A stretch of DNA of 34,736 nt from a bacterium (GTDB taxonomy: Bacteria; Spirochaetota; Spirochaetia; Treponematales; Rectinemataceae), in the NCBI GenBank assembly GCA_021779995.1, contig JAJXZP010000027.1, positions 1-34,736 on the forward strand, read 5' to 3'. Positions 18,405 to 32,293 of the stretch are shown here, one piece after another. The position numbers and the translations under genes were made by a program. Under the pieces are notes generated by a model that did no database searches, had not been told where the DNA came from, and saw only the letters and a program-made list of their open reading frames with translations. Numbering within the stretch: the stretch's first letter is position 1; every line of letters begins with the position of its first letter.

Positions 18405-18715
18405 GGCAGCGGCGCACAAGGCCCCGTAGCCTTCCGCGACACGCTCATCGCAGGCGAGACTCTTCTAGCCGATCCCGGAACGAGGAGGCGAGCCGCCGTG
18501 GAAGGTTATGCGGCCCGCCCTTCCCCGGGGACCCTGAAATAGCCGAAGCGCGACGATTCTTCCCTCCCCCCTCTCAATCCCCCCCCGAATCGCGCCGAAA
18601 AATACTACGGACGGGACTCTGGCGAATCACGTCCACATTTCGCGGGCGTCTCGTATATAATCGGAAATCGACCGTTCGTCAGCAGCATCCGCCTGAGCCA
18701 AGGAGCGCCTCGTTC
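18405..18715. other. Intergenic region upstream of the chemosensory operon
   Basis: 311 bp with no gene recognised. The middle has a pyrimidine-rich stretch with a run of eight C residues (about 18560-18590). The 3' end carries the operon promoter and the AAGGAG ribosome site (18700-18705). Confidence 0.5.
18632..18661 (+). promoter_or_regulatory. Promoter of the chemosensory operon
   Basis: TATAAT (18656-18661), a perfect -10, lies 18 bp after TCCACA (18632-18637), a 4/6 -35. Start near 18668, leader about 48 nt. It is the only strong promoter seen before the nine-gene operon. Confidence 0.6.
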
Positions 18716-20464
18716 ATGGGCACCGAAACGAAGCGAGAAAATCTTCAACTGATCCGCAGCATCCGCCGGCGCGTGGCGATCACGGTCTACGGGGTTCTGG
18801 CCTTCTTCCTCTTCTCGAGCGAGTTCCTGAACGCGATCTTCAACAATCGGCTCGACGAGCAGGGGGCCGGCCTGGGAAGCCGCATCCTGTTCGCGTTCAA
18901 GCCCACCGTCATCGCGCTCTATGTCGTGCTGGCCGTCTGCCTCTACGCCCTGATCATGTGGTATCTGCGCCCGCTCCTGCGCTTCCTCGCCGACGGGAGG
19001 GACCACCAGCGGGCGCGCAGCGCCGCCATCAACGTCCCCTGGGTCATCATCATCTTCCAGCTCGCGGCCTGGACGGTCGGCACGACCCTGTACTATCTCC
19101 TGGAAAACTGGAAGGCCGAGAGCGGCATTCCCTTCGCCCTGGGGCTCCTCTTGAAGATCGGGGTGGGCCTGCCCGCGGGGGTCTACATCTCCATTTTCTT
19201 CAATCTCATCCTCATCCCGACCAAGCGCCGGCTCGGCATGACCGAGATGCACCGCAACGAGAACGACCTCTTTTCCCGCTGGCGCGACCACATCGCCGTC
19301 GCCGCGGCGGCCGTCTTCATGACGATCAACTACAGCTACATCGTCTTCTACTACTCGAAAGCCTCGGTGGACCTCGGTTTCGCGGATTTCTACGGACCGC
19401 TCATCGTGCTGGGCATCCTCTTCAGCGCGGTCTCGGTGGGACTGATCGCCATCTCCAAGCGGGAGTATGACATCCAGATCGAGTCCATCCACTCCGTGCT
19501 GCGCGACATGGCGGCCGGCACGACGCGATCCGACCGGCGCATCCACATCCTCAACTTCAACGAGCTGGGGCAGACGGCCACCTACGTCAACATCATCCTC
19601 GACGGCTTCGCGAGCATCCTCCGCCGGATCAGCGACACCTCCGGGCTCCTGGCCGACTCTTCGCAGCGGCTCTCGGTCACGGGCCAGCAGAACGCGGCGC
19701 TCTCGAACCAGGTGGCCGCCAGCACCGCCGAGATCGTCTCCACCATGGAAAACCTGAACCAGCAATCCGGCGACATCGGCACCCAGGTGAAGCAGGTCGA
19801 GGAGCAGGCCATACGCATGAAAGAGGGGGTGTACGACGGCTCCACCATCACCAAGGAAAACATCGCGAAGATGCAGGAGCTGACCTCGTCCTACGCCGAG
19901 ACGATCGAGGGGATGAAGAGCCTGGGCGAGCAGATCACCGGCATCTGGGAGATCGTGAAGATCATCAACGGCATCGCGGGCCAGATCAAGATCATAGCCT
20001 TCAACGCCGCGCTCGAGGCCTCCTCGGCGGGCGAGGCCGGGAAGAACTTCGAGATAGTCGCCGCGGAGATCCGCCGCCTGGCCGACAGCACGGTGGCCTC
20101 GACCAACGAGATCCGCGCCAAGATAGGCGACATCCAGCACGCCTCGGACGCGCTCATCGGCTCCTCCGTGGCGGACACCCTCAAGATCCAGGACACCCGG
20201 CAGATGTCCGGCAGGCTCGAGAAGGTCTTCGAGACGATCCTCGGATCCTCGGAAACCTCGTCCGAGTCGGCGATGACGGTGAGGACGGCCGTCGAACAGC
20301 AGATCGACGCCTTCGAGCAGGTCCTGGCCACCCTGCGCCAGATCGCCGACGGCGTCCACGAGTTCGCGGGCTCGATCGAGGAAACCAGTGTCACCACGGA
20401 TCTTTTGCGGAAGATGGTGGACGATCTCAACGCCATCGTGGAAAGCTCGGAAGAGAGGAAGTAG
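18716..20464 (+). CDS. Methyl-accepting chemotaxis protein with six-TM sensor domain
   Basis: 582 aa from ATG 18716 (AAGGAG 10 nt upstream). The N-terminal 250 residues contain about six membrane helices (near 19-40, 58-85, 103-127, 137-162, 190-212 and 225-247) and hardly any periplasmic domain, so the signal is sensed in or near the membrane. A HAMP-like segment (IESIHSVLRDMAAG ... LNFNELGQTATYVN) leads to the cytoplasmic receptor coiled coil. The hairpin tip reads IAGQIKIIAFNAALEASSAGE instead of the usual QTNLLALNAAIEAARAGE, a variant shared with the next two receptors. It is the first gene of the operon; the next gene starts two bases after its stop codon. The ligand is unknown. Confidence 0.88.
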   Translation: MGTETKRENLQLIRSIRRRVAITVYGVLAFFLFSSEFLNAIFNNRLDEQGAGLGSRILFAFKPTVIALYVVLAVCLYALIMWYLRPLLRFLADGRDHQRARSAAINVPWVIIIFQLAAWTVGTTLYYLLENWKAESGIPFALGLLLKIGVGLPAGVYISIFFNLILIPTKRRLGMTEMHRNENDLFSRWRDHIAVAAAAVFMTINYSYIVFYYSKASVDLGFADFYGPLIVLGILFSAVSVGLIAISKREYDIQIESIHSVLRDMAAGTTRSDRRIHILNFNELGQTATYVNIILDGFASILRRISDTSGLLADSSQRLSVTGQQNAALSNQVAASTAEIVSTMENLNQQSGDIGTQVKQVEEQAIRMKEGVYDGSTITKENIAKMQELTSSYAETIEGMKSLGEQITGIWEIVKIINGIAGQIKIIAFNAALEASSAGEAGKNFEIVAAEIRRLADSTVASTNEIRAKIGDIQHASDALIGSSVADTLKIQDTRQMSGRLEKVFETILGSSETSSESAMTVRTAVEQQIDAFEQVLATLRQIADGVHEFAGSIEETSVTTDLLRKMVDDLNAIVESSEERK

Positions 20465-20466
20465 GA

Positions 20467-22467
20467 ATGGCCAAGTTGAGCCGGGTGATCGAGGTCGATC
20501 CGCAGAAGTGCGTCAACTGCCACGCCTGCATCGCCGCCTGCCCCGTCAAGTACTGCAACGACGGCACCGCGGACCACGTGGAGGTCGATCCCGACCTCTG
20601 CATCGGCTGCGGCTCGTGCATCACCGCCTGCACGCACGGGGCCCGCAGGGGCGTGGACGATTTCCCGCGCGCGCTCGAGGCCCTGCGCTCGGGCGGGAGG
20701 ATGATCGCCATCTCGGCCCCGGCCATCGCCTCCAACTTCCCCGGATCGTACCTGCGCGTCCAGGGCTGGCTCCAGAGCCTGGGCGTGCGCGATTTCTTCG
20801 ACGTGAGCTTCGGCGCCGAGCTGACGATCAAGTCCTACGCGGAGCACCTTAGGAGCGCCGCGCCGGCCACGCTGATCGCGCAGCCCTGCCCCGCCGTCGT
20901 CTCGTACATCGAGCTGTACCAGCCCGAGCTCCTGCCCTACCTGGCCCCGGCCGACAGCCCCATGCTCCACACCATCAAGATGATCCGCGAGTACTACCCG
21001 GTGTACGCGGGCTACAAGATCCTGGTGCTCTCGCCCTGCTACGCCAAGCGCCGCGAGTTCGACGAGACGGGCCTGGGCGACTACAATGTCACCTTCAAGT
21101 CCCTCGCGGACCACATCGAGGCCGAGGGCATCGACCTCGGCTCCTACCCCGAGATCGATTTCGTCGGCGACGCCGCCGAGCGCGCCGTGCTCTTCTCCTC
21201 CCCGGGCGGCCTCCTGCGCACCCTGGCCAGGGACAACCCCGGGGCAGCCGAGCGCACGCGCAAGATCGAGGGGCCGGATATCCTCTACGATTACCTGAAA
21301 AAGCTGCCGGCCATGATCGACTCGGGCTACGCGCCCCTGCTCGTGGACTGCCTCAACTGCGACATGGGCTGCAACGGCGGACCGGGCACCCTCAACCTCG
21401 AGAAATCGATCGACGAGATCGAGGCGCTCATCGAGCGGCGCAGCGCCGCGATGCGCGAGGCCTACCGCAGGCGGGGCCTGGGCTCGTCCGAGGCCGCGGC
21501 CGACCGCCGCGTGAATCGCGTCATCGCCAAGTTCTGGAAGCGGGGGCTCTACGGCCGGAGCTACCAGGACCTGTCGGGCAACAACGGCGTGCGCCTGCCG
21601 AGCAAGGCCGAGTTCGAGGACATCTACCAGCGGATGCACAAGCGCGACACGAAGGACTTCCTCAACTGCGGCGCCTGCGGCTACGACAACTGCGAGGCCA
21701 TGGCCGTCGCCATCCACAACGGCCTCAACAAGCCGAGCAACTGCTTCCATTACGAGCGCGCGAGCCGGCAGGAGATGACCGCCATGCTCTTCGCGGGCAT
21801 CAGGGAGTCGGCCCAGCGGCTCTCCGAGGCCCTCGGCCGCATGACGGCGCAGGATCGCGCCGCCGGAGCGGAGGCGACCGTCTCGGTCCACGAGATCGCG
21901 CGCATCTCGGGCGAGATGCGCGCCTCGATCGAGGCGGGCATGGGCTACATCGAGTCGACCATCGCCAACATGGACGGCATCCGCTCCTCCAACAAGGTGA
22001 CGGTGGAGCACATGGGCGCGCTGAACGAGCAGATCCAGAGCATCACGGAGATCCTCGGGCTCATCTCGGCCATCGCCGACCAGACCAAGATCATCGCCTT
22101 CAACGCCGAGCTCGAGGCCTCGGCGGCCGGAGAGACGGGGCGGAGCTTCGAGATCGTGGCGGCCGAGATCCGGCGGCTCGCGAACAGCACGGTGGACGCC
22201 ACCGCGCGCATCAAGCAGAAGATCGAGGGGATCCAGGCTTCCTCGCTGAAGCTGGGCGAATATTCCCGCCGCGAGAGCGAGAGCATCCACGACGGCTCCG
22301 GCTTGACCGCCAAGCTGCGCGATGTCTTCAGCCATCTCGCGGACTATTCCGTGGAGTCCGACCGCAAGATCCGCGGCTCGATCGAGGAGCAGGTGAGCAC
22401 CTTCAACCAGACCCTCGAAGAGCTGGATCACATCATCCGCGAGCTCGACCAGTATGTCAGCCGATAG
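20467..22467 (+). CDS. Soluble chemoreceptor: ferredoxin + [FeFe]-hydrogenase-like + Fe-S + MCP domains
   Basis: 666 aa without membrane helices. Domain order: two 4Fe-4S ferredoxin motifs (C15/18/21/25 and C45/48/51/55); a hydrogenase large-subunit domain (about 75-330) with the three H-cluster blocks PCPAVV (C141), SPCYAK (C191) and CLNCDMGCNGG (C298, C302); an extra Fe-S domain CGACGYDNC ... C (C401, 404, 409, 426); then an MCP signalling domain with tip DQTKIIAFNAELEASAAGE. All four cysteines expected to hold the cubane of the H-cluster are present, but the neighbouring catalytic Cys of the usual CCP motif is Pro140. That fits a sensory rather than a catalytic hydrogenase. The likely job is to report H2 or redox state to CheA. 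No maturation genes are in the window, so cofactor assembly is unproven. Confidence 0.88.
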   Translation: MAKLSRVIEVDPQKCVNCHACIAACPVKYCNDGTADHVEVDPDLCIGCGSCITACTHGARRGVDDFPRALEALRSGGRMIAISAPAIASNFPGSYLRVQGWLQSLGVRDFFDVSFGAELTIKSYAEHLRSAAPATLIAQPCPAVVSYIELYQPELLPYLAPADSPMLHTIKMIREYYPVYAGYKILVLSPCYAKRREFDETGLGDYNVTFKSLADHIEAEGIDLGSYPEIDFVGDAAERAVLFSSPGGLLRTLARDNPGAAERTRKIEGPDILYDYLKKLPAMIDSGYAPLLVDCLNCDMGCNGGPGTLNLEKSIDEIEALIERRSAAMREAYRRRGLGSSEAAADRRVNRVIAKFWKRGLYGRSYQDLSGNNGVRLPSKAEFEDIYQRMHKRDTKDFLNCGACGYDNCEAMAVAIHNGLNKPSNCFHYERASRQEMTAMLFAGIRESAQRLSEALGRMTAQDRAAGAEATVSVHEIARISGEMRASIEAGMGYIESTIANMDGIRSSNKVTVEHMGALNEQIQSITEILGLISAIADQTKIIAFNAELEASAAGETGRSFEIVAAEIRRLANSTVDATARIKQKIEGIQASSLKLGEYSRRESESIHDGSGLTAKLRDVFSHLADYSVESDRKIRGSIEEQVSTFNQTLEELDHIIRELDQYVSR

Positions 22468-22485
22468 GAAATTCGAGGCATGCGC

Positions 22486-24651
22486 ATGAACGAGAACGAC
22501 GAGGCTCCTCCTCCGATTGCCCCTGCGGGGTCCGCCGCGCCGAAGGACGCCGCATACGGGCGCCGAGGGCTGACCCGCACCCTGTGCGTGGGCGTCACCC
22601 TCCCCTTCGCCGCCTCGATGCTCGTCATGCTCCTGGTCGCCGTGCTGGCCTTGCGCGGCTCCGCCGATCGCCTGGCCGGGGCGGCGGCGAAGCGCGCCCT
22701 GGCCTCGGCCGAGGGCATGCTGGAGAGCGGGATGCGCGGCTCGATGGCCGGATTCCTCGAGGCCAAGGCCGAGAGCGCCCGGGACCTGATCGCCGCCTTC
22801 GACGACCGCGCGGCCCGCGGCCAGATGTCGAAGGCCCAGGCCTTCGCCTCGGCCAGGCAGGCGCTCGCGAGTCCGGCCTTCGGCTCCTGGGGAGGCTCCG
22901 GCTATTACGCCCTGGTCGACGGCCGGGGCTTCTGGCCGCTGCACCCGCCGGCCCGGGCAGGCGAGGCGGAGAAGCTCGCCTTCGTGCAGGCCGCCCGCTC
23001 CCTGGGCGAAGGCTTCCTGGAATACCGCTTCCAGGGCCCCGGCGATCCGGAAGCGCGCGAGAAGGCGGCCTACGTGACGCGGTATGCGCCGCGCGACCTC
23101 CTCGTCTGGGCCGTCGTCGACGAGGGCGAGTTCCTGGAGCGCCTCGATCCTGCGCGGCTCGAGGCCTGGATCAGCCCCGGCGACCGGAAGGAGCCCGGCG
23201 ATTTCTTCCTCCTGGACGCGGCCGGGAAGCTCGTCCTCGGCCGGGACCGCTACGGCCTCGCCGCAGGTGCGGCCGCCGCAGGAGCGGCCGCGGCCATCAC
23301 GGCCGCCGCCACAGCTGCCACGACAGCTGCCGCCCGAACGGCCGCAGCCCAAGCGACCACAGCCGGAGCGGCCGCCGCGACGACAGCCGCCGCTACGCCC
23401 GCCGCCCCTGCGGCCTCCGGCGCCCGGAGCGCTCCGGAATACGTCTCCGTGGGCGGCGAGCGCCTGCGCCTGGACTCGGTCCGACTGCCCGAGGGACCCT
23501 GGACCCTGGTCTCGGTGACGCGGCTGGGCCCCTACGACGCCCTCGCGGCCGCCGCGGCCGCGATCATGGCGGCCGCCCTGCTCCTCTCCGGCGTGGCGAT
23601 CAATCTCGCCCTGCGCCTCCTCCTCGCCCGGCACCTCAAGCCGATCCGCGAGATGCAGGCCGCGGCCGACAAGGTCTCCGCCGGCGACCTCACCGGGAGG
23701 ATAGAGGAGAACGCCGACGACGAGATCGGCGAGGTCTCCCGGATGTTCAACCGGGTGATGGACGAGTTCGCCGAGCTCCTGCGCAAGGTGAAGGCCATGA
23801 TAGCCGTCCTGGGCGGCTCCATCCAGAACCTGAGCACCTCGACCCAGGAGATCGCCAGCACCTCCAACGAGCAGGCCGCCTCGGTGAAGGAGGTCCTGAG
23901 CACGATGGAGGACTCGGACCGCCTCTCGAAGGGCGTGGAGGTCAAGATCCAGGAAGTGGCGCGCATCGCCACCCACACGAAGGACAATGTCGAGCGCGGC
24001 TTCGAGCTCATCCAGAGCAGCCTGGGCAAGATGGAGGAGATCCGCTCCACGAACGCCCAGACCCTGGTCGGGATCAAGACCCTGGGCGACCTCATCGAGA
24101 CGATCTGGGACATCGTCAACATCATCAACGGCATCGCCGACCAGACCAAGATCATCGCCTTCAACGCCGAGCTGGAGGCCGCGGCCGCCGGCGACGCGGG
24201 CAAGAACTTCCGGATCGTGGCGGGCGAGATCCGCCGCCTGGCCGACAGCACGGTGGATTCCACCAACGAGATCAAGGAGAAGATCAACGAGATCCAGCAC
24301 GCCTCCGACAAGCTCATCCTCGCCTCGGAGGAGGGGACGCAGCGCATCCGCGAGGGCTGGGACGTCTCCAGCAACATCCGCGGGGTCTTCGAGGACGTGC
24401 TGCGCTCCAGCGAGATCTCGGCCAACTCCGCCAACGACATCAGCCGCTCCATCAACATGCAGGTCGTGTCCTTCGAGCAGATCTTCCTGACCCTCAAGCA
24501 GATCTCGGAGAGCATCGACAATTTCGTGGAATCCACCTCCTACACCACGGAGGTCTCCGACAAGCTCAAGTCGATCTCCGAATCCTTCCGGGCCCAGGTC
24601 GAGTCGTACTCCATCGGCGAGGCGGGCTCCGGCCGCAGGGGAGGCGGCTGA
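22486..24651 (+). CDS. Cache-domain methyl-accepting chemotaxis protein
   Basis: 721 aa. GAGG at 22475-22478 is 7 nt before ATG 22486 but only 1 nt before ATG 22480, so 22486 is the start. Order: cytoplasmic tail, TM1 (about 31-57), periplasmic Cache-type sensor with GSGYYALVDGRGFWPLHPP, TM2 (about 351-380), HAMP (LKPIREMQAAADKVSAGDLTGRI), receptor coiled coil. The tip is DQTKIIAFNAELEAAAAGD. A low-complexity Ala/Thr stretch of about 50 residues (about 259-311) interrupts the distal part of the sensor, between LVLGRDRYG and PEYVSVGGE. Cache sensors bind small organic ligands; none can be named. Its stop overlaps the cheW start (TGATG). Confidence 0.88.
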   Translation: MNENDEAPPPIAPAGSAAPKDAAYGRRGLTRTLCVGVTLPFAASMLVMLLVAVLALRGSADRLAGAAAKRALASAEGMLESGMRGSMAGFLEAKAESARDLIAAFDDRAARGQMSKAQAFASARQALASPAFGSWGGSGYYALVDGRGFWPLHPPARAGEAEKLAFVQAARSLGEGFLEYRFQGPGDPEAREKAAYVTRYAPRDLLVWAVVDEGEFLERLDPARLEAWISPGDRKEPGDFFLLDAAGKLVLGRDRYGLAAGAAAAGAAAAITAAATAATTAAARTAAAQATTAGAAAATTAAATPAAPAASGARSAPEYVSVGGERLRLDSVRLPEGPWTLVSVTRLGPYDALAAAAAAIMAAALLLSGVAINLALRLLLARHLKPIREMQAAADKVSAGDLTGRIEENADDEIGEVSRMFNRVMDEFAELLRKVKAMIAVLGGSIQNLSTSTQEIASTSNEQAASVKEVLSTMEDSDRLSKGVEVKIQEVARIATHTKDNVERGFELIQSSLGKMEEIRSTNAQTLVGIKTLGDLIETIWDIVNIINGIADQTKIIAFNAELEAAAAGDAGKNFRIVAGEIRRLADSTVDSTNEIKEKINEIQHASDKLILASEEGTQRIREGWDVSSNIRGVFEDVLRSSEISANSANDISRSINMQVVSFEQIFLTLKQISESIDNFVESTSYTTEVSDKLKSISESFRAQVESYSIGEAGSGRRGGG

Positions 24652-25154
24652 TGGACAACGCCTCCCTCCTCCGGACCCTGAAGGAACGGGCCGCCCGGAA
24701 CCGCGCCAAGGCGGAGAGCGAGCAGGTGCTCTTCAAGTACGTGGTGTTCCTGGTCGGCGAGCAGAGCTACGCCCTGCCGGCCGACCGCGTGCACGAGATC
24801 TCCTTCGACAACGAGCTGTACTACGTGCCCTTCCTGCCCTCCTACGTCCGGGGCTACGCCAACCGGCACGGCCAGCCCTACACCGTCCTCGACATCCGCA
24901 TGCTCTTCGAGAAGAGCGCGCTCGATTCCTCCACCCTCCTCATCCTGAACGTCGCCAACGATCAGCTGGCGCTGCTCATCACGGACGTGGACGAGATCGT
25001 CAAGCTCCCGGCCGAGGCCGCCCATCCCCTGGCCTCCGAGGAGGAGAGCGCCCGCTACTTCGCCCACTCGATCACCGTGAAGGAGCGGGAAGTCTTCGTC
25101 ATCAATGTCGAGACTCTCCTCCTGCGGCTGGAGCGCGACGTTGAGCGCATCTGA
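24651..25154 (+). CDS. cheW: CheW coupling protein
   Basis: 167 aa. After a charged N-terminal helix (about 1-25), KYVVFLVGEQSYALPADRVHEISFDNELYYVPFLPSYVRGYANRHGQPYTVLDIRMLFE is a typical CheW SH3-like fold, as is LLILNVANDQLALLITDVDEIVKLP. CheW links receptors to CheA in cytoplasmic arrays. GGGGAGG lies about 7 nt before the ATG; the start overlaps the receptor stop, and the end overlaps the following gene by 14 bp. It belongs to the same cluster as three receptors with a non-standard tip and is presumably adapted to them. Confidence 0.92.
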   Translation: MDNASLLRTLKERAARNRAKAESEQVLFKYVVFLVGEQSYALPADRVHEISFDNELYYVPFLPSYVRGYANRHGQPYTVLDIRMLFEKSALDSSTLLILNVANDQLALLITDVDEIVKLPAEAAHPLASEEESARYFAHSITVKEREVFVINVETLLLRLERDVERI

Positions 25155-25695
25155 GGAGCTGCGCGTCCTCTTCCTGCAGTACGAAGGCGTCCACTTCCTC
25201 CTCGACCGGTCGCAGTGCGCCTCCAGCCTCTTCGCCTCGGAGGTGCAGGAGGTCGGCTCGCGCCACCGCTACCTCCGCGAGCTCCTCCGGGTCGGCGACG
25301 AGCGGCTCCTGTTCTTCGACCTGCAGCTCTTCCTGCGCGAGACCTTCCACGCCCGGTCGGGCGCCGGCGCCCAGCTGGCCATCATCGGGGAGCTGGCCGG
25401 CTTCGAATCGCGCACGCGCGAGCTGTTCCGGCGCTCGGTCTTCCCGTCCCTGGAGCGCCTGGAGCTGGACACCGGACGGATCGCCTTCCGCATTCCGTCC
25501 GACACCGTCATGCGCAGCCTGAGCCCGGAGGATCTGGCGCCGCACAACGTCTCGATACGCCGGCCGCTGGAGGCGCGGGGGCTGCTGGCCCTGCACCCCA
25601 CCGAGCGGTCGATGGGCTTTCTGCTCGACCTCGACCGCCTGGTCGGGTCGAGGCTGCTCTTCGCGTCCGCGCGGAGGAAAGAGGCGGACGAATGA
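25141..25695 (+). CDS. Small chemosensory-operon protein, possibly a second divergent CheW
   Basis: 184 aa if started at TTG 25141, which has GGAG 7-8 nt upstream; no better ATG exists near. The sequence (ELRVLFLQYEGVHFLLDRSQCASSLFASEVQEVGSRHRYLRELLRVGDERLLFFDLQLFLRE) has the beta-strand rhythm and position of CheW-like domains (hydrophobic strand, specificity strand, then a LLFFDL strand), but I cannot confirm the fold. It lies between cheW and cheB, overlapping both by 14 and 4 bp. It may be a scaffold specific to this pathway. Reality of the gene is nearly certain; its identity is not. Confidence 0.65.
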   Translation: MSASEELRVLFLQYEGVHFLLDRSQCASSLFASEVQEVGSRHRYLRELLRVGDERLLFFDLQLFLRETFHARSGAGAQLAIIGELAGFESRTRELFRRSVFPSLERLELDTGRIAFRIPSDTVMRSLSPEDLAPHNVSIRRPLEARGLLALHPTERSMGFLLDLDRLVGSRLLFASARRKEADE

Positions 25696-26756
25696 AGGTG
25701 CTCGTAGTCGACGATTCGATCCTGATGCGCAACATCCTGAAGGAGATGTTCCGCGACTCGGGCGTGGCCGTCCTGGGCGAGGGCAGCGACGGCCGCGCCG
25801 CGGTGGAGCTCAACCGCGCCCTGCGGCCCGACCTCATCGTGATGGACATCAACATGCCGAGCATGAACGGCCTCGAGGCCACGAGGGCCATCATGGGCGA
25901 GTGCCCCACGGCCATCGTCATCTTCTCCAACGAGATCGACGCGAAGATTTCCTTCCAGGCCATCCAGGCCGGGGCCGTGGAGGTCGCCGCCAAGCCCGAC
26001 ATCGACCAGTTCAACGATCCGGCCTACACGGGCAAGCTGCTGAAGATGCTGCATGCCGCCGCAGGGGTCTTCGGCGGCGGCCGCGCCAAGCAGGCCTGCG
26101 CTCCCGGAGAGAGCCCCGCTCCGGCCGCGGAGACGGCGCGCGCCGGCCGGGCCGCGGGCCGCCTCGCGGGTCCGGCCTCGGGCCCGCGGCGCATCGAGGC
26201 CGTGGTCATCGGCGCCTCGACGGGAGGGCCCATGGCGGTCCGCGACCTCCTGCGCGGCCTGCCGGCCGACTTTCCCGTGGGCATCGCCCTGGTGCAGCAC
26301 ATCGAAGAGCGCTTCGACAAGGGCTACGCCGAGTGGCTCGACGGCGAATGCGAACTCCGCGTGCGCCTGGCCCGGGACAACGACAGCTTCACGCCCGGAG
26401 AGGTGATCGTCGCGCCCTCGGGACACCACCTCGTCTGCGGCGAGCGCCGCCTCATCCTCGCCGACACCCCACCCGTGGGCAATCAGAAGCCCTCGGTCGA
26501 CCGGCTCTTCGAGACGGCGGCGCTCGGCTTCGGAGACCGCCTGGCGGCCGTCCTCCTGACCGGCATGGGCTCGGACGGCGCCGAGGGCTGCGTCAAGGTG
26601 AAGGCCGCCGGAGGCCTGACCCTGGTCCAGGACGAGGCGACCTCCTTCATCTACGGCATGCCCAAGGCCGCCGTCGAGCGCGGCGGGGCCGTCCGCGTCC
26701 TGGGTCTGCCGCAGATCCCGGCCGCGCTCCTGGAGGCGGTCGGCTATCATGGATGA
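25692..26756 (+). CDS. cheB: CheB receptor methylesterase/deamidase
   Basis: 354 aa. An N-terminal receiver (1-122; phosphoacceptor D52 in LIVMDINMPSMNG, conserved D7/D8) is joined by a Pro/Ala-rich linker (about 128-165) to the methylesterase domain. The catalytic triad is visible: S176 (GASTGGP), H203 (LVQHI) and D295 (GMGSDG). CheB removes methyl groups from receptor glutamates when phosphorylated by CheA, giving adaptation. ATGA overlap with the preceding gene and an 8-bp overlap with cheR show tight coupling. Its presence means the three receptors probably undergo methylation-based adaptation. Confidence 0.95.
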   Translation: MKVLVVDDSILMRNILKEMFRDSGVAVLGEGSDGRAAVELNRALRPDLIVMDINMPSMNGLEATRAIMGECPTAIVIFSNEIDAKISFQAIQAGAVEVAAKPDIDQFNDPAYTGKLLKMLHAAAGVFGGGRAKQACAPGESPAPAAETARAGRAAGRLAGPASGPRRIEAVVIGASTGGPMAVRDLLRGLPADFPVGIALVQHIEERFDKGYAEWLDGECELRVRLARDNDSFTPGEVIVAPSGHHLVCGERRLILADTPPVGNQKPSVDRLFETAALGFGDRLAAVLLTGMGSDGAEGCVKVKAAGGLTLVQDEATSFIYGMPKAAVERGGAVRVLGLPQIPAALLEAVGYHG

Positions 26757-28188
26757 GAGCTTCGTCGACAAGGCGGTGGACTACGTGGAAGCGTTCACCG
26801 GCCTGAGATCGCCCGCCTCCAACCGCGCCCACTTCAGGCGGGCCCTGCTGGGCCAGGCCCGGGCCGCGGGGATGCCTCCCGAGCGGCTGGCCGCCGAGCT
26901 GAGCCTCGACGCGGGGATCCGGCAGCGCTTCCTCAACGCGGTGATGATCGGCGAAACCTACTTCTTCCGGGAGGCCTCCCAATTCCGCCTGCTGCGCGAG
27001 GCCCTCGCGGGGCGATGGGCCGCGACCGCTCGGAGGCTCCGCTGCTGGAGCGTCTCCTGCTCCACCGGCGAGGAAGCGGTGAGTCTGGCCGCCGTGCTGG
27101 ACGAACGGCGGCGCGAGCGCGGCGGGCCGGAGTACGAGGTGCACGCCTCGGACATCAACGACACCGCCCTGGAATGCCTGCGCGGCGGCGTCTTTCCGCG
27201 CGCCTCCCTGCGCCGGGACGGACGGGAGTTCCACGACAGCCTCTTGCGGCGCCACGTGATCCGCGAGGACGAAACGGGCCTCACCCTCGATCCGGCACTC
27301 CTGGCCAGGATCTCGATCCATCATCTCAACTTCTTCCGGGACCCCCTGGGCGCCATCCCGGACGAGCTGGATGTCGTGTTCTTCCGCAACACCCTCCTGT
27401 ACGCGACCCTGGAGAAGCGGGAGTTCATCGTCGACCGGATCGTGCCCAAGCTGCGCGAGGGCGGCCTCCTCTTTCTGGCGACGAGCGAATTGCCCTTCGT
27501 GAAGCGAGCCGACCTGCGCCTGGAGAAGTCCGACCACGCCTACGTCCTCGTGCGGGAGAGCCCGGATCGGTCTCGCGGGAGCGCGGCTCGGGAGAGTCCG
27601 GCTCGCGAGAGTTTGGCTCGCGGGGACGGCGGCGGGCCGGGGCCCCTCGGGAGTCCGGACCCCGCCGAGGCGGACGCGCAGGTCACGACCGAGGCCGTCC
27701 TGGGCTTCCTCAACGGCGGCGAGCGCGCGCGCGCCGAGAGCCGCGGGGACGCCGTCGCCGAGTTCGCGCGGCTCGTGGCGAGCCTCTTCGCGGCCCTGGG
27801 CTCGGGCCGGAAGGACGAGGCCGCGCTCCTCCTCGGCGCGCTCGAAGCGGCCTCGAGCCCCGGCGTGGAGTCTCTCGCGCGCTACTGCGCCGGCCGCTTC
27901 CACGCCGCGACCGGCGATTCCGGGCGCGCCAGGGCCGAGTTCGAGCTGGCGCTCGAGGCGGACGGATCCTTCTGGCCGGCGCGCTTCTACCTCGCCTCGC
28001 TCTCGGCGCCCTCCTCCGGGCGAAGGGCGCGGCGGGAGTTCGAGCGCTGCCTCGCGGCCATCGAGGCCGAGTCGCGGGGCGAGCGCTTCGCCTGTCTGCT
28101 CGAGGGCTTCAACAGCGCGTATTTCCGGCGCATGTGCGTCCGATGGATCGAAAAACTGGCGGAGGACGGGGGTCGGGGATGCCCATAG
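26749..28188 (+). CDS. cheR: CheR receptor methyltransferase with C-terminal helical extension
   Basis: 479 aa, about 200 longer than minimal CheR. The methyltransferase (1-275) has FLNAVMIGETYFFREASQFRLL, the SAM-binding CWSVSCSTGEEAVSLA and HASDIND; the usual CRNVLIYF block is FRNTLLYAT. A low-complexity linker with RESP repeats (about 276-310) leads to a helical C-terminus (about 320-470; LARYCAGRFHAATGDSGRARAEFELALEADGSFWPARFYLASL) that resembles TPR repeats, as found in CheR proteins of other alternative pathways where it mediates protein binding. It adds methyl groups to receptors using SAM. It overlaps cheB by 8 bp and cheA by 10 bp. Confidence 0.92.
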   Translation: MDESFVDKAVDYVEAFTGLRSPASNRAHFRRALLGQARAAGMPPERLAAELSLDAGIRQRFLNAVMIGETYFFREASQFRLLREALAGRWAATARRLRCWSVSCSTGEEAVSLAAVLDERRRERGGPEYEVHASDINDTALECLRGGVFPRASLRRDGREFHDSLLRRHVIREDETGLTLDPALLARISIHHLNFFRDPLGAIPDELDVVFFRNTLLYATLEKREFIVDRIVPKLREGGLLFLATSELPFVKRADLRLEKSDHAYVLVRESPDRSRGSAARESPARESLARGDGGGPGPLGSPDPAEADAQVTTEAVLGFLNGGERARAESRGDAVAEFARLVASLFAALGSGRKDEAALLLGALEAASSPGVESLARYCAGRFHAATGDSGRARAEFELALEADGSFWPARFYLASLSAPSSGRRARREFERCLAAIEAESRGERFACLLEGFNSAYFRRMCVRWIEKLAEDGGRGCP

Positions 28189-30446
28189 ACCGTGCGGCCT
28201 TCATCGAGAACTACGTCGATGAAACCCGCGAGAATCTGCGAAAGATCGACGACGGAGTGGTCAGGCTCAGGAAGGACCCGGAGAACCAGGACGAGCTCGG
28301 CTCGATCCTGCGCGCGCTCCATACGATCAAGGGCTCTTCGCGCATGCTCAAGTTCCGCGGCATGGAGCAGGTGGCGCACGGGACGGAGAGCGTGTTCAAG
28401 GGCATCCGCGAGCAGCGGTATGCGCTCTCCTCTCTCCTCATGCGGCTGGTGTTCTTCGGCGGCGATCTCCTGCGCCAGGGCGTGGAATCGATCCTGAAGG
28501 CCGGCTCCGACGACGCGCGGATCGCGCCCCATCTCGCGGCCTATCTCGCGGCCTGCGAGCACGCCTACGCCGACGAGCCCTTCGTCGAGGAATTCGAGAA
28601 ACTGCAGGGCGCCCTCGCCGGGGGGGAGGCCCAGGCGGCTCAGGCGCCCGGGGCGGGCGGAGCGGAAGCGCCCGGCACAGGGGGCGGCCCCCTCGCCGCG
28701 GCCCAGTCCGGCGAGAACGGCTACGACAGCGTGCGCGTCAAGACGGGCAGCGTCTCGCAGATAATCGAGACGCTCAATACCGTCATCATCAGGCAATTCC
28801 AGTTCAAGCAGATCCAGGAAGAGCTAGGCGCCCTCGAGCGCGGCTTTTCCGATTTCTGGACCGACACGCGCACGAGGATCGCCGAGGCGAAACGACAGGG
28901 CCGGGGCGAGGGGCGGACCGCCTTCCTGGCCTCGGGGCAGGCCCTGCTCAAGGCGACCCAGAGCCTGCGCAAGGAATTCGTCGACCAGATGGCCGCGCTC
29001 GAGCAGCACTCCTACAAGCTCCAGGAACAGGTCATGCGGCTGTCGATGCTGCCCCTGGATCTGATCCTGGGCGAGCTGCCCCGGATGGTGGCCGAAACCT
29101 CGGCCGCGCTCGGCAAGGAGATGGACTTCACCGTCACGGGCTCGGACGTCCTCATGGACAAGGCCATTCTCGAAAGGTTGAGCGATCCCCTCCTCCACCT
29201 GGTGCGCAACTCGGTGGACCACGGCATCGAGACCCCGGCCGAGCGCGTCGCGGCGGGCAAGAGCGCCGCGGGCAGGATCGGCGTCGCGTGCAGCTCCGAG
29301 TCGGGCAACATCGTCATCAGGGTCACGGACGACGGCAGGGGCATCGACCCCGAGCGGATCAAGCGGCGGGCGGTGGAGCTCGGCCTCCTGAAGGAGTCCG
29401 ACGCGGCAGGCCTCGAGGAGACCGAGGCCTACGCCTTCATGTTCCGCTCCGGATTCTCCACGAAAGAAGCCGTCTCGGAGCTCTCCGGGCGCGGCGTGGG
29501 CCTGGATATCGTCAAGTTCAACGTCGACAAGGTCAAGGGCAAGGTGAGCGTGCGCAGCGTCAAGGGCCAGGGCAGCGAGTTCATCCTCTCGGTGCCCCTG
29601 TCGCTGGCCACGGTCTCGGGCTTCTTCGTCAAGGCCGGGGGCGAGAAGTTCCTCATCCCCAGCAACTTCGTCCAGAAGATCGTCAGGCTCGCCGTCGCGG
29701 ACAAGGTGGTCTACTACAACCGGGAGGCCTTCAAGCTGGACGGCCAGATCGTGCCGCTGTACTCCCTCGCGACCCTCGTGGGGCGCCAGACGCAGAACCG
29801 GGGAGCCTTCCTCTACGTGGTCGTGGTGGAATCGGTCGGCGAGAAGATCGGCATCGTGGTGGACGCCGTCCTGCAGCACGCGGCCCTGATCTACAAACCG
29901 GCGCCGCGCAACGTGCAGAAACTGAAGCCCATCCAGGGCATAGTCTTCGACGAGAGCTACCGGATCATCAACATCCTCTTCGTCCCCGAACTGATCGCCC
30001 GCTTCAAGCGCATCCGGTCCATCGATCTCCTCGGCGGGGTGGGCGGCGAGAAGCCGAAGCCGAGGCAGGCCCTCGTGGTCGACGACTCGATCAACACCCG
30101 CGAGATCGAGAAGTCGATCCTCGAATTGGAGGGCTTCGAGGTGACGGGCGCCGAGGACGGGATCGAGGCCTTGCAGCTCCTGAAGGAGCGGCGCTACGAC
30201 CTCATCCTCTCCGACATCGAGATGCCGCGCATGGACGGCATCACCATGATAGAGAACATCCGCAAGGACCCCTTCTACGCGAACACCCCCATCGTGGTCG
30301 TGACCTCCTATTCCGACGAGGCCACGAGGAAGCGGGCCCGCGAGGCCGGGGCGGACGCGCAGATCGTCAAGTCGGATTTCGACCGCAACGGCCTGCTCGA
30401 AATCGTCGAAGGCCTGATGGGCGCGGTCAAGGCGGTGGAGATATGA
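28179..30446 (+). CDS. cheA: Hybrid histidine kinase CheA with C-terminal receiver
   Basis: 755 aa from ATG 28179, inside the end of cheR. Order: HPt with phosphorylatable H48 (LHTIKGSSRMLKF); an Ala/Gly-rich linker (about 150-185) in place of a clear P2; dimerisation helices; HATPase with HLVRNSVDHGIE, DDGRGID and SGRGVGLDIVKF; CheW-like P5; then a receiver with D679 (LILSDIEMPRMDG). CheA phosphorylates receivers in response to receptor state. The fused receiver may act as output or phosphate sink. With CheB, the following cyclase and its own receiver, there are three receivers but no free CheY in the operon. It overlaps the cyclase gene by ATGA. Confidence 0.94.
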   Translation: MPIDRAAFIENYVDETRENLRKIDDGVVRLRKDPENQDELGSILRALHTIKGSSRMLKFRGMEQVAHGTESVFKGIREQRYALSSLLMRLVFFGGDLLRQGVESILKAGSDDARIAPHLAAYLAACEHAYADEPFVEEFEKLQGALAGGEAQAAQAPGAGGAEAPGTGGGPLAAAQSGENGYDSVRVKTGSVSQIIETLNTVIIRQFQFKQIQEELGALERGFSDFWTDTRTRIAEAKRQGRGEGRTAFLASGQALLKATQSLRKEFVDQMAALEQHSYKLQEQVMRLSMLPLDLILGELPRMVAETSAALGKEMDFTVTGSDVLMDKAILERLSDPLLHLVRNSVDHGIETPAERVAAGKSAAGRIGVACSSESGNIVIRVTDDGRGIDPERIKRRAVELGLLKESDAAGLEETEAYAFMFRSGFSTKEAVSELSGRGVGLDIVKFNVDKVKGKVSVRSVKGQGSEFILSVPLSLATVSGFFVKAGGEKFLIPSNFVQKIVRLAVADKVVYYNREAFKLDGQIVPLYSLATLVGRQTQNRGAFLYVVVVESVGEKIGIVVDAVLQHAALIYKPAPRNVQKLKPIQGIVFDESYRIINILFVPELIARFKRIRSIDLLGGVGGEKPKPRQALVVDDSINTREIEKSILELEGFEVTGAEDGIEALQLLKERRYDLILSDIEMPRMDGITMIENIRKDPFYANTPIVVVTSYSDEATRKRAREAGADAQIVKSDFDRNGLLEIVEGLMGAVKAVEI

Positions 30447-32293
30447 GCAAGATCCTCCTCGTGGACGACTCCGCCCTGATCCGCGGCGTCCTCGAAACCT
30501 TCCTCGCGTCGAAGGGCTACGAGGTCATCCTCGCCGAGAACGGCCTGGAGGGCATCCTCGCCGCCTATCGCCACGTGCCCGACCTGATCGTGACCGACGT
30601 GGAGATGCCCCGGCTGCAGGGCTACCAGATGAGCCGCCTCCTCAAGAGCCGCCGGGAGATCCGCAAGATACCCATCATCATGCACACGAGCCTCTCCGAG
30701 GACCGCGACAAGTTCTGGGCCGACTCCTCGGGCGCGGAAGCCTTCATCACCAAGGACTTCGACAATCTCGAGGCCCTGGCCGCGCAGCTGAAAAGCTCGC
30801 TGGCGAAGGCCGTCCCCGTCGACCGCGACCTGATCGCGGAGGACGCCGCGGGCATGGGGGAGGCGGCGGCCCTCGAGATGCTGGGAAGCCTCTTCGACGG
30901 AGAGCTCTTCAAGTCGACGATCATGAACGAGCTCAACGAGGTCGAGCGCCACATCGGCTCCCTCTCGCTCTCCGCCGCGGAGGTCCTCAAGATCCTGAGG
31001 AAGGTCTGCCAGGTCCACATCGGCGTCTTGATCCTGCGCCAGGAGAACGACGCGCAGATGTACATCCTGCCCTCGACGGAGGTGGTCAAGGCCGATGTCG
31101 AGCGCTTCCAGGCCGTCTGTCTCCGCGAGTTCGAAGGCCTCGCGGGACCGATGACCGGGCAGCTGACGGCCAAGGTCCTCGGCGTCGAGGGGCGAGCCGA
31201 CTACGAGAGGGGCCGCATCGACGGCCGCCGTCTCAGCTCCCTGCATTCGGCGGAGCTCAGGGGCAAGGGCGAGACGGTCATCGGGACCCTGCACGTCGGC
31301 AATCTCGCCAACAACTACTTCTCGGAGCTGATCGTCGGCAACATCCGCTCCTTCGCGGACGGGGCCGCTCCCGTCCTGGAGAACGCGGTGCTCTTCCGCG
31401 CCATCAACGAGATGCGGCGCAAGATCGACACCATGTTCTCCAAGTTCGTGCCGCAGGAAGTCATCCGGGAGCTCCTCTCCCGGCGCAGCGACACCGAGAT
31501 GAAGATCGGCGAGAAGCGCAGCGTCGCCATCCTCTTCTCCGACATCCGCTCCTTCACGGTGATCTCCGAGAACAACTCCGCCGAGAAGATCGTGGACTTC
31601 CTGAACCGCTACTTCCAGCTCATGGTGCGGATCATCCGCGCCCAGGGCGGGATCATCGACAAATTCATAGGCGACGCCATCCTGGCGGTCTTCGGCGCCC
31701 CCGTGAGCTACGAGGACAACGCCGCCCGCGCGGTGCGCGCCGCGGTCGCCATGGCCGAGGCCCTGCGCGACTTCGACACCTCGGGCCTCGTGCTGCCCGA
31801 GGGCGGATTCCGCGCGGGCATCGGCATCCACGAGGGAGACGTGATCGTCGGCAATATCGGCAGCGAGGACAAGTTCGACTACACCGTCATCGGCGACAAC
31901 GTCAACCTCGCCTCGCGCCTGGAGGGACTCACCAAGCACTACCGCGCGACGATCCTCGTCTCCGACGCGGTGCGCCGGGCCGTCGGCGAGGACCTGCGCG
32001 TCCGCGAGGTGGACACGGTGCGCGTCATGGGAAGGGAGCAGGCGACCACCCTGTATTCGATCGAGAGCGCCGACCAGGGCCTCGTCGACGAGGCCGCCTG
32101 CGAAGTCTACCGCAAGGCCCTGAGCATGTACAAAATGCGCAATTGGACGACCGCGATCGACTACTTCAGGCAGGTGCTCGCGAAGCGCTCCGACGACTAC
32201 CTGAGCCTCATGTACATCGACCGCTGCGAGGAGTTCGCGAAAAATCCGCCGCCCGACGACTGGGAAGGCACCATCCGCCTCGACTTCAAGTAG
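30443..32293 (+). CDS. Response regulator - class III adenylate cyclase
   Basis: 616 aa. Receiver (1-120, phosphoacceptor D52 in LIVTDVEMPRLQG); a middle region (about 150-325) that looks GAF-like; class III cyclase (about 355-540); a short helical tail (about 545-600) resembling one TPR. Catalytic residues are complete: metal Asp D367 (FSDIRSFT) and D411 (IGDAILAVFG), adenine-selecting K407 and D479 (KFIGD; KFDYTVIGD), transition-state N488 and R492 (NLASRLE). ATP to cAMP is therefore predicted rather than cGMP. Receiver placement implies control by CheA phosphorylation. It is the last gene of the operon and looks like its dedicated output. Confidence 0.9.
   Translation: MSKILLVDDSALIRGVLETFLASKGYEVILAENGLEGILAAYRHVPDLIVTDVEMPRLQGYQMSRLLKSRREIRKIPIIMHTSLSEDRDKFWADSSGAEAFITKDFDNLEALAAQLKSSLAKAVPVDRDLIAEDAAGMGEAAALEMLGSLFDGELFKSTIMNELNEVERHIGSLSLSAAEVLKILRKVCQVHIGVLILRQENDAQMYILPSTEVVKADVERFQAVCLREFEGLAGPMTGQLTAKVLGVEGRADYERGRIDGRRLSSLHSAELRGKGETVIGTLHVGNLANNYFSELIVGNIRSFADGAAPVLENAVLFRAINEMRRKIDTMFSKFVPQEVIRELLSRRSDTEMKIGEKRSVAILFSDIRSFTVISENNSAEKIVDFLNRYFQLMVRIIRAQGGIIDKFIGDAILAVFGAPVSYEDNAARAVRAAVAMAEALRDFDTSGLVLPEGGFRAGIGIHEGDVIVGNIGSEDKFDYTVIGDNVNLASRLEGLTKHYRATILVSDAVRRAVGEDLRVREVDTVRVMGREQATTLYSIESADQGLVDEAACEVYRKALSMYKMRNWTTAIDYFRQVLAKRSDDYLSLMYIDRCEEFAKNPPPDDWEGTIRLDFK

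Follow-up and report, generated by a model that had tools for sequence, protein, structure and literature searches.

The window analysed here, the whole of a 34,736-nucleotide contig (C69) from a spirochaetal genome, contains a gene that joins a hydrogenase-like domain directly to a chemoreceptor signalling domain, raising the question of what such a receptor senses and where its signal goes. A preliminary description had suggested that the protein reads H2 or redox potential and passes the signal to CheA. We lean, if only slightly, towards the reading that it is an Fe-S redox receptor that would not need the [2Fe] subcluster and that would belong to a private array with cAMP output. The features of the gene, all on the forward strand, are as follows.

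20467..22467, + strand: hydrogenase-like chemoreceptor gene, ATG start, 666 aa (two Fer4 domains, H-domain, FeS domain, MCP domain)
20485..20649, + strand: two ferredoxin-type [4Fe-4S] sites (Pfam Fer4; Cys 15, 18, 21, 25, 45, 48, 51, 55)
20701..21384, + strand: compact [FeFe]-hydrogenase H-domain, residues 79-306 (PF02906, 93.1 bits, cut-off 22.1; fold match)
20884..20889, + strand: L1 motif, with Pro140 (CpI C299) and C141 (CpI C300)
21031..21048, + strand: L2 motif SPCYAK, with Ser189 (CpI M353), C191 (C355) and K194 (K358)
21349..21372, + strand: L3 motif CLNCDMGC, with an extra C295, Leu296 (CpI M497), C298 (C499) and C302 (C503)
21661..21744, + strand: C-terminal [4Fe-4S] domain, C401, C404, C409 and C426 in Cx2Cx4Cx16C spacing (PF04060)
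22000..22446, + strand: MCP signalling domain, residues 512-660 (PF00015, 79.4 bits)
22084..22119, + strand: variant hairpin tip TKIIAFNAELEA, in its own genome common only to the receptor, MCP1 and MCP3

Pfam assignments on the 666-residue protein (Fer4 twice; Fe_hyd_lg_C, residues 79-306; FeS PF04060, residues 399-426; MCPsignal, residues 512-660) and a hydropathy profile with no membrane-helix-like segment (maximum over 19 residues, 1.25) agreed with the earlier account of a soluble protein that fuses two ferredoxin clusters, a hydrogenase domain, an Fe-S domain and an MCP domain. As an MCP, it combines the PF00015 match of 79.4 bits with the presence of cheW and cheA in the same operon. 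A purine-rich stretch lies 5' of the ATG. Structure prediction, one of the checks proposed at the outset, recovered the [FeFe]-hydrogenase fold; the AlphaFold2 model of residues 1-441 had a mean pLDDT of 93.4, its best PDB fold matches were [FeFe]-hydrogenases (E down to 3e-19), and its secondary structure included a predicted helix at residues 427-440, directly after the C-terminal Fe-S domain and leading into the MCP tail. The 16 cluster cysteines of the four [4Fe-4S] sites were invariant in a 34-sequence alignment. These include the eight ferredoxin-site cysteines, which were also invariant among 45 spirochaetal sequences, and the H-domain cubane ligands C141, C191, C298 and C302, which had been rightly reported as kept. 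Because this conserved family spans several phyla, the architecture is not a product of chance. Judged by its sequence, the protein is a predicted four-cluster Fe-S module on a sensory [FeFe]-hydrogenase scaffold, fused to an MCP tail.

Analysis of the pocket placed the receptor apart from the catalytic enzymes. With Pro at the position of C299, Ser at M353 and Leu at M497, the catalytic group A signature is absent; the group A model TIGR02512 scored 89.5 bits against a cut-off of 405.95, and the NCBIfam models of groups A and B1 both gave scores well under their cut-offs. The spacing between L2 and L3 is 107 residues, near that of B/C/D-type sequences (assigned by motif), compared with 144-158 in group A. 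Since only group A is longer, truncation of the H-domain was ruled out as an argument against an H-cluster. Pro140 was correctly reported at the position of the proton-transfer cysteine and is the rule rather than an exception, being nearly invariant in the 34-sequence alignment and present in 43 of the 45 spirochaetal sequences, with one Thr and one Ser. The altered residue had been offered as a sign of sensory function, which is borne out to the extent that groups C and D also lack C299; Pro at this position, by itself, shows neither sensing nor loss of the H-cluster. Loss of Cys299 was ruled out as proof of sensing, since the residue is missing not only from groups C and D but also from Nar1, which is no hydrogenase.

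In its pocket the receptor is like TamHydS (group D, from Thermoanaerobacter mathranii), which has Ser at M353 and Leu at M497, lacks C299 and works with an H-cluster (PMC8163306). TamHydS and the receptor share two N-terminal clusters, the H-domain, a C-terminal Cx2Cx4Cx16C motif, the Ser and Leu changes and the loss of C299 (PMC8163306, PMC13104023), and the spacing of the C-terminal motif in the receptor matches exactly the one described for HydS of groups C and D. Given this pocket and the compact spacing of the B/C/D types, an H-cluster is still possible by sequence. In contrast to the receptor, TamHydS has no MCP domain, and group D-type sequences (by motif) mostly carry Ala at the C299 position and form a separate clade. 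TmHydS of Thermotoga maritima (group C; PMC10055695) likewise offers a putative H2-sensing scaffold with C299, M353 and M497 altered, but it has Gly at M353, Ser at M497 and a PAS tail, and group C-type sequences (by motif) also form a separate clade. In the tree, the 66 rows of the receptor family and its sister lineages fell on one side and groups A, B, C and D on the other (SH-aLRT 99), with groups A-D labelled by motif, length and gene neighbours rather than by published reference sequences and with groups E-G outside the comparison. The suggested phylogeny against HydA and HydS therefore separates the family from everything labelled by motif as group A, B, C or D, and it ruled out group C or D proper, so labelled, as the home of the receptor.

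Is the receptor nevertheless an H2 sensor? In a true H2 receptor of the kind proposed for HydDB C2, HydEFG would load the [2Fe] subcluster, the H-cluster would bind H2 or oxidise it slowly, and the resulting change would reach the MCP tail. The genome carrying the window (3.45 Mb, 88.6% complete) provides part of what this requires; the genome search for hydEFG found HydF and HydG, both above cut-off, and two HydA of group A6 type. HydE had no match above cut-off in this genome, which is uninformative in a MAG of 88.6% completeness whose hydG sits at the end of a contig. With HydF and HydG encoded, the combination that would have left only an Fe-S redox sensor, namely no hydEFG and a pocket unable to hold the diiron site, is not what this genome presents. 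The TamHydS-like pocket, the HydS-type C-terminal motif and the 107-residue spacing near groups B, C and D (assigned by motif) also speak for H2, and retention of K194, P85 and the bridging Cys302 counts against a redox receptor. In addition, the receptor gene adjoins or sits inside a hyd maturase cluster in the related genomes G236 and G294 (L118:6550-12539; L119:7957-14156) and lies 7.6 kb from hydG in G374, which hints at a role in hydrogen metabolism in those lineages. Besides hydG and hydF, the G236 and G294 clusters contain another gene similar to HydG, which is probably hydE.

The distribution of maturases across the family points the other way. Carriers of the module (match at E<=1e-140) numbered 82 among 393 Spirochaetota genomes, and HydF and HydG were searched for in an equal number of genomes, drawn the same way and matched by the same handles. 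Maturases were commoner in carriers than in non-carriers (51/82 versus 86/311; odds ratio 4.3, Fisher P 2e-8, uncorrected for kinship), where a positive genome has at least one of HydF and HydG, and HydG was above cut-off in 20 of 28 further named genomes from several phyla that have the module or a sister, so that most carriers outside Spirochaetota have HydG. Yet 31 of the 82 carriers had neither HydF nor HydG. Among them are the near-complete genomes G157 and G232 (two contigs, 99% complete). In 23 of these 31 maturase-minus carriers, HydG was sought again at a looser threshold (E<=1e-5) and no match reached the family cut-off; the outcome for HydE was the same. Group A HydA was also missing from 19 of the 31.

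The ligands and pocket of the module are in essence unchanged in such genomes. A comparison of 30 sequences from maturase-plus genomes with 15 from maturase-minus ones showed no difference in the cluster cysteines, S189 or L296, and single exceptions only at P140 and K194; residues G304 and F243 were more variable in the maturase-minus set. Placing the maturase label on the tree required at least eight changes, indicating that the module has been retained repeatedly without maturases. Taken with the unaltered pocket and ligands in carriers lacking HydF and HydG, this argues that the module has no general need of the [2Fe] subcluster and that the H-cluster is not what selection keeps in maturase-minus genomes. 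The most pointed case is G376, which has a matching REC-cyclase chemosensory cluster and in which HydF, HydG and HydA were not found. Dependence on HydEFG is therefore not borne out for the family. What stands of the original proposal is a sensory hydrogenase-type module, with pocket changes as in the putative sensory TamHydS, joined directly to a chemoreceptor; what does not stand is H2 as the general rule. The absence of maturases has to be weighed against 79 genomes that have group A HydA without HydF or HydG, the sampled ones of which, including the single-contig G358 (L096) and G130 (L097), have intact L1-L3. For such genomes, either the lack of maturases is an imperfect proxy or the HydA present are unusual in themselves; these proteins may work without an H-cluster, or their maturation may not be understood. 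Overall, we regard the protein as doubtful as an H2 receptor, and H2 sensing in this particular organism as possible, at roughly the same low level of confidence.

We propose instead that the input is a four-cluster relay, in which two ferredoxin-type [4Fe-4S] clusters would be followed by the H-domain cubane and by the C-terminal [4Fe-4S] cluster, which directly adjoins the signalling helix. Such a relay would most likely report the reduction state of a low-potential (ferredoxin) electron pool, or the integrity of the clusters themselves. Reduction or loss of a cluster would, we infer, shift the helix pair and alter CheA activity. In organisms that have HydEFG, loading of an H-cluster could let H2 feed the same relay as an optional, putative input.

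A rival to this reading is another metal centre, in which the cubane would be joined by a group other than an H-cluster that would sense O2, NO or sulphide; it might be a labile [2Fe-2S] cluster and might involve Cys295 (21349-21351). Cys295 was invariant in the 45 spirochaetal sequences and absent from groups A-D (assigned by motif) and from the sister lineages shown, and a labile [2Fe-2S] cluster has been proposed for Nar1 (PMC12621388). However, Cys295 replaces the neighbour of CpI M497 rather than a pocket-facing residue and may point away from the pocket, and we consider such a centre improbable. Nar1/IOP1 does resemble the receptor in using the hydrogenase fold without HydEFG and in keeping the cubane site, although it is a eukaryotic Fe-S assembly factor and not a receptor (PMC12621388).

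As to where the signal goes, the receptor is the second gene of a nine-gene operon (MCP1, receptor, MCP3, CheW, a protein with no assigned function, CheB, CheR, CheA-REC and REC-cyclase) whose genes overlap or lie no more than 12 bp apart. Besides the receptor gene, the operon region comprises:

18632..18661, + strand: sigma-70-like promoter match TCCACA-18-TATAAT, a weak match (10/12 positions in a consensus scan), 54 bp upstream of the first operon gene
18716..20464, + strand: MCP1, with about six membrane-helix-like segments by hydropathy, no named sensor domain and tip KIIAFN (MCPsignal, 78 bits; start by inspection)
22480..24651, + strand: MCP3, membrane receptor with sCache_2-type sensor, HAMP, MCPsignal and variant tip (Pfam)
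24651..25154, + strand: CheW (PF01584, 62.9 bits)
25105..25695, + strand: small protein with no Pfam match, between CheW and CheB
25692..26756, + strand: CheB (REC and methylesterase)
26749..28188, + strand: CheR (PF01739, 109 bits)
28179..30446, + strand: hybrid CheA with Hpt motif HTIKGSSRM, HATPase, CheW-like domain and C-terminal REC
30443..32293, + strand: REC-class III nucleotidyl cyclase (PF00211, 89 bits; PF00072)

The sensor half of MCP3 contains an Ala/Thr-rich low-complexity stretch (23290-23460), and an uncharacterised ORF occupies the same place in G376 as the small protein at 25105-25695.

Chemosensory systems with non-flagellar output combine a complete che operon with a gene for a non-motor effector. 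In this operon the effector gene that is neither CheY nor motor-related encodes the REC-nucleotidyl cyclase, a putative function, so that the system differs from others of its kind in having a REC-class III cyclase-like protein as output and a hydrogenase-like protein among its inputs. The operon CheA retains the Hpt motif HTIKGSSRM and the REC aspartate. By inspection, the cyclase keeps SDIRSFT, KFIGDA and DYT, motifs that suggest an adenylyl-type enzyme. The likely target of the signal is narrower than the CheA first named, being an operon of its own whose output is REC-adenylyl-cyclase-like. In the reading that we favour, the redox signal would enter a private CheW/hybrid-CheA array common to the receptor and the two membrane receptors of the operon, and the likely output would be the phosphorylated REC-adenylyl-cyclase-like protein, and hence cAMP, rather than the flagellar motor.

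The hairpin tips bear directly on membership of this array. The genome has 29 MCP-domain matches, 25 with a readable tip, and KIIAFN (KII-FN) occurred only in the three operon MCPs, which suggests that they form an array of their own and signal through cAMP. The alternative is ordinary flagellar chemotaxis fed by the receptor, with the cyclase a mere neighbour; in its favour, CheB and CheR, the adaptation enzymes, are in the operon, and a paralogue of the receptor (L005; identity 45% over 621 residues and 54% within the sensor module) has an ordinary tip and probably serves the flagellar array. Nevertheless, the tip private to the operon MCPs argues against a flagellar role for the receptor itself, as do the 4-bp overlap of the cyclase gene with cheA and the position of a cyclase after cheA in G376 as well, making this alternative rather unlikely. 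On the simplest reading, one copy (L005) would act in the flagellar array and the other in the private cAMP array.

In G376, genes for an MCP, CheW, an uncharacterised protein, CheB, CheR, CheA and the cyclase are followed by two tandem hydrogenase-MCPs (L135:8455-12600), of which the first has the variant tip and the other an ordinary tip, and the sensor modules of the pair are sisters in the tree. Sister modules on different tails indicate that modules move between tails, which we read as module shuffling or gene conversion. In L040, MCP1 adjoins the receptor and MCP3 adjoins CheW. Elsewhere the module was linked to HATPase, PAS-HisKA-HATPase, PAS-SpoIIE and HAMP-MCP outputs, a variety that fits a generic redox input.

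Comparison with published classifications showed that the category to which the receptor belongs is already known. HydDB lists an "[FeFe] group C2, chemotactic (putative)" of sensory-type hydrogenases expected to act via MCPs, with its role given as undetermined (2016, Sondergaard et al., PMC5037454). By that description, the receptor has the H-domain (by Pfam and fold) and MCP domain of the group and is a member of this named, uncharacterised class. The HydDB paper was the source of this category; searches of the literature for MCP-hydrogenase fusions by name returned nothing direct. In the part of the HydDB account drawn on here, H2 sensing is proposed for the group, whereas the maturase distribution suggests that an H-cluster is not generally needed, and that part makes no mention of a REC-cyclase operon. 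The decoupling from maturases and the REC-cyclase operon are two additions that were not seen in the literature searched. An acetogen survey dropped its C2 hits after further checks (PMC9431212).

It is a tentative suggestion, somewhat short of even confidence, that most of the MCP-linked [FeFe] hydrogenases whose annotation is putative H2 chemoreceptor do not in fact sense H2, having given up [2Fe], perhaps for another centre, and serve as a portable Fe-S redox gauge both in ordinary arrays and in a private CheA-cAMP array. HydDB-type surveys would class the family as H2-sensing hydrogenases. If the module functions with no H-cluster, their counts would be wrong and the hydrogenase fold would have become a general bacterial redox sensor, parallel to eukaryotic Nar1. 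Signalling from such a receptor to a REC-cyclase would also couple the state of the electron pool to cAMP in spirochaetes. Genomes that lack the maturases allow the redox reading to be tested directly, G376 foremost among them, with its matching chemosensory cluster and no HydF, HydG or HydA detected. The genome carrying the window also encodes, in separate genes, an H-domain protein of group D type, similar to TamHydS but lacking the C-terminal Fe-S motif (L004), and a group C1-like histidine kinase with Fer4, H-domain, FeS, HisKA and HATPase domains (L003).
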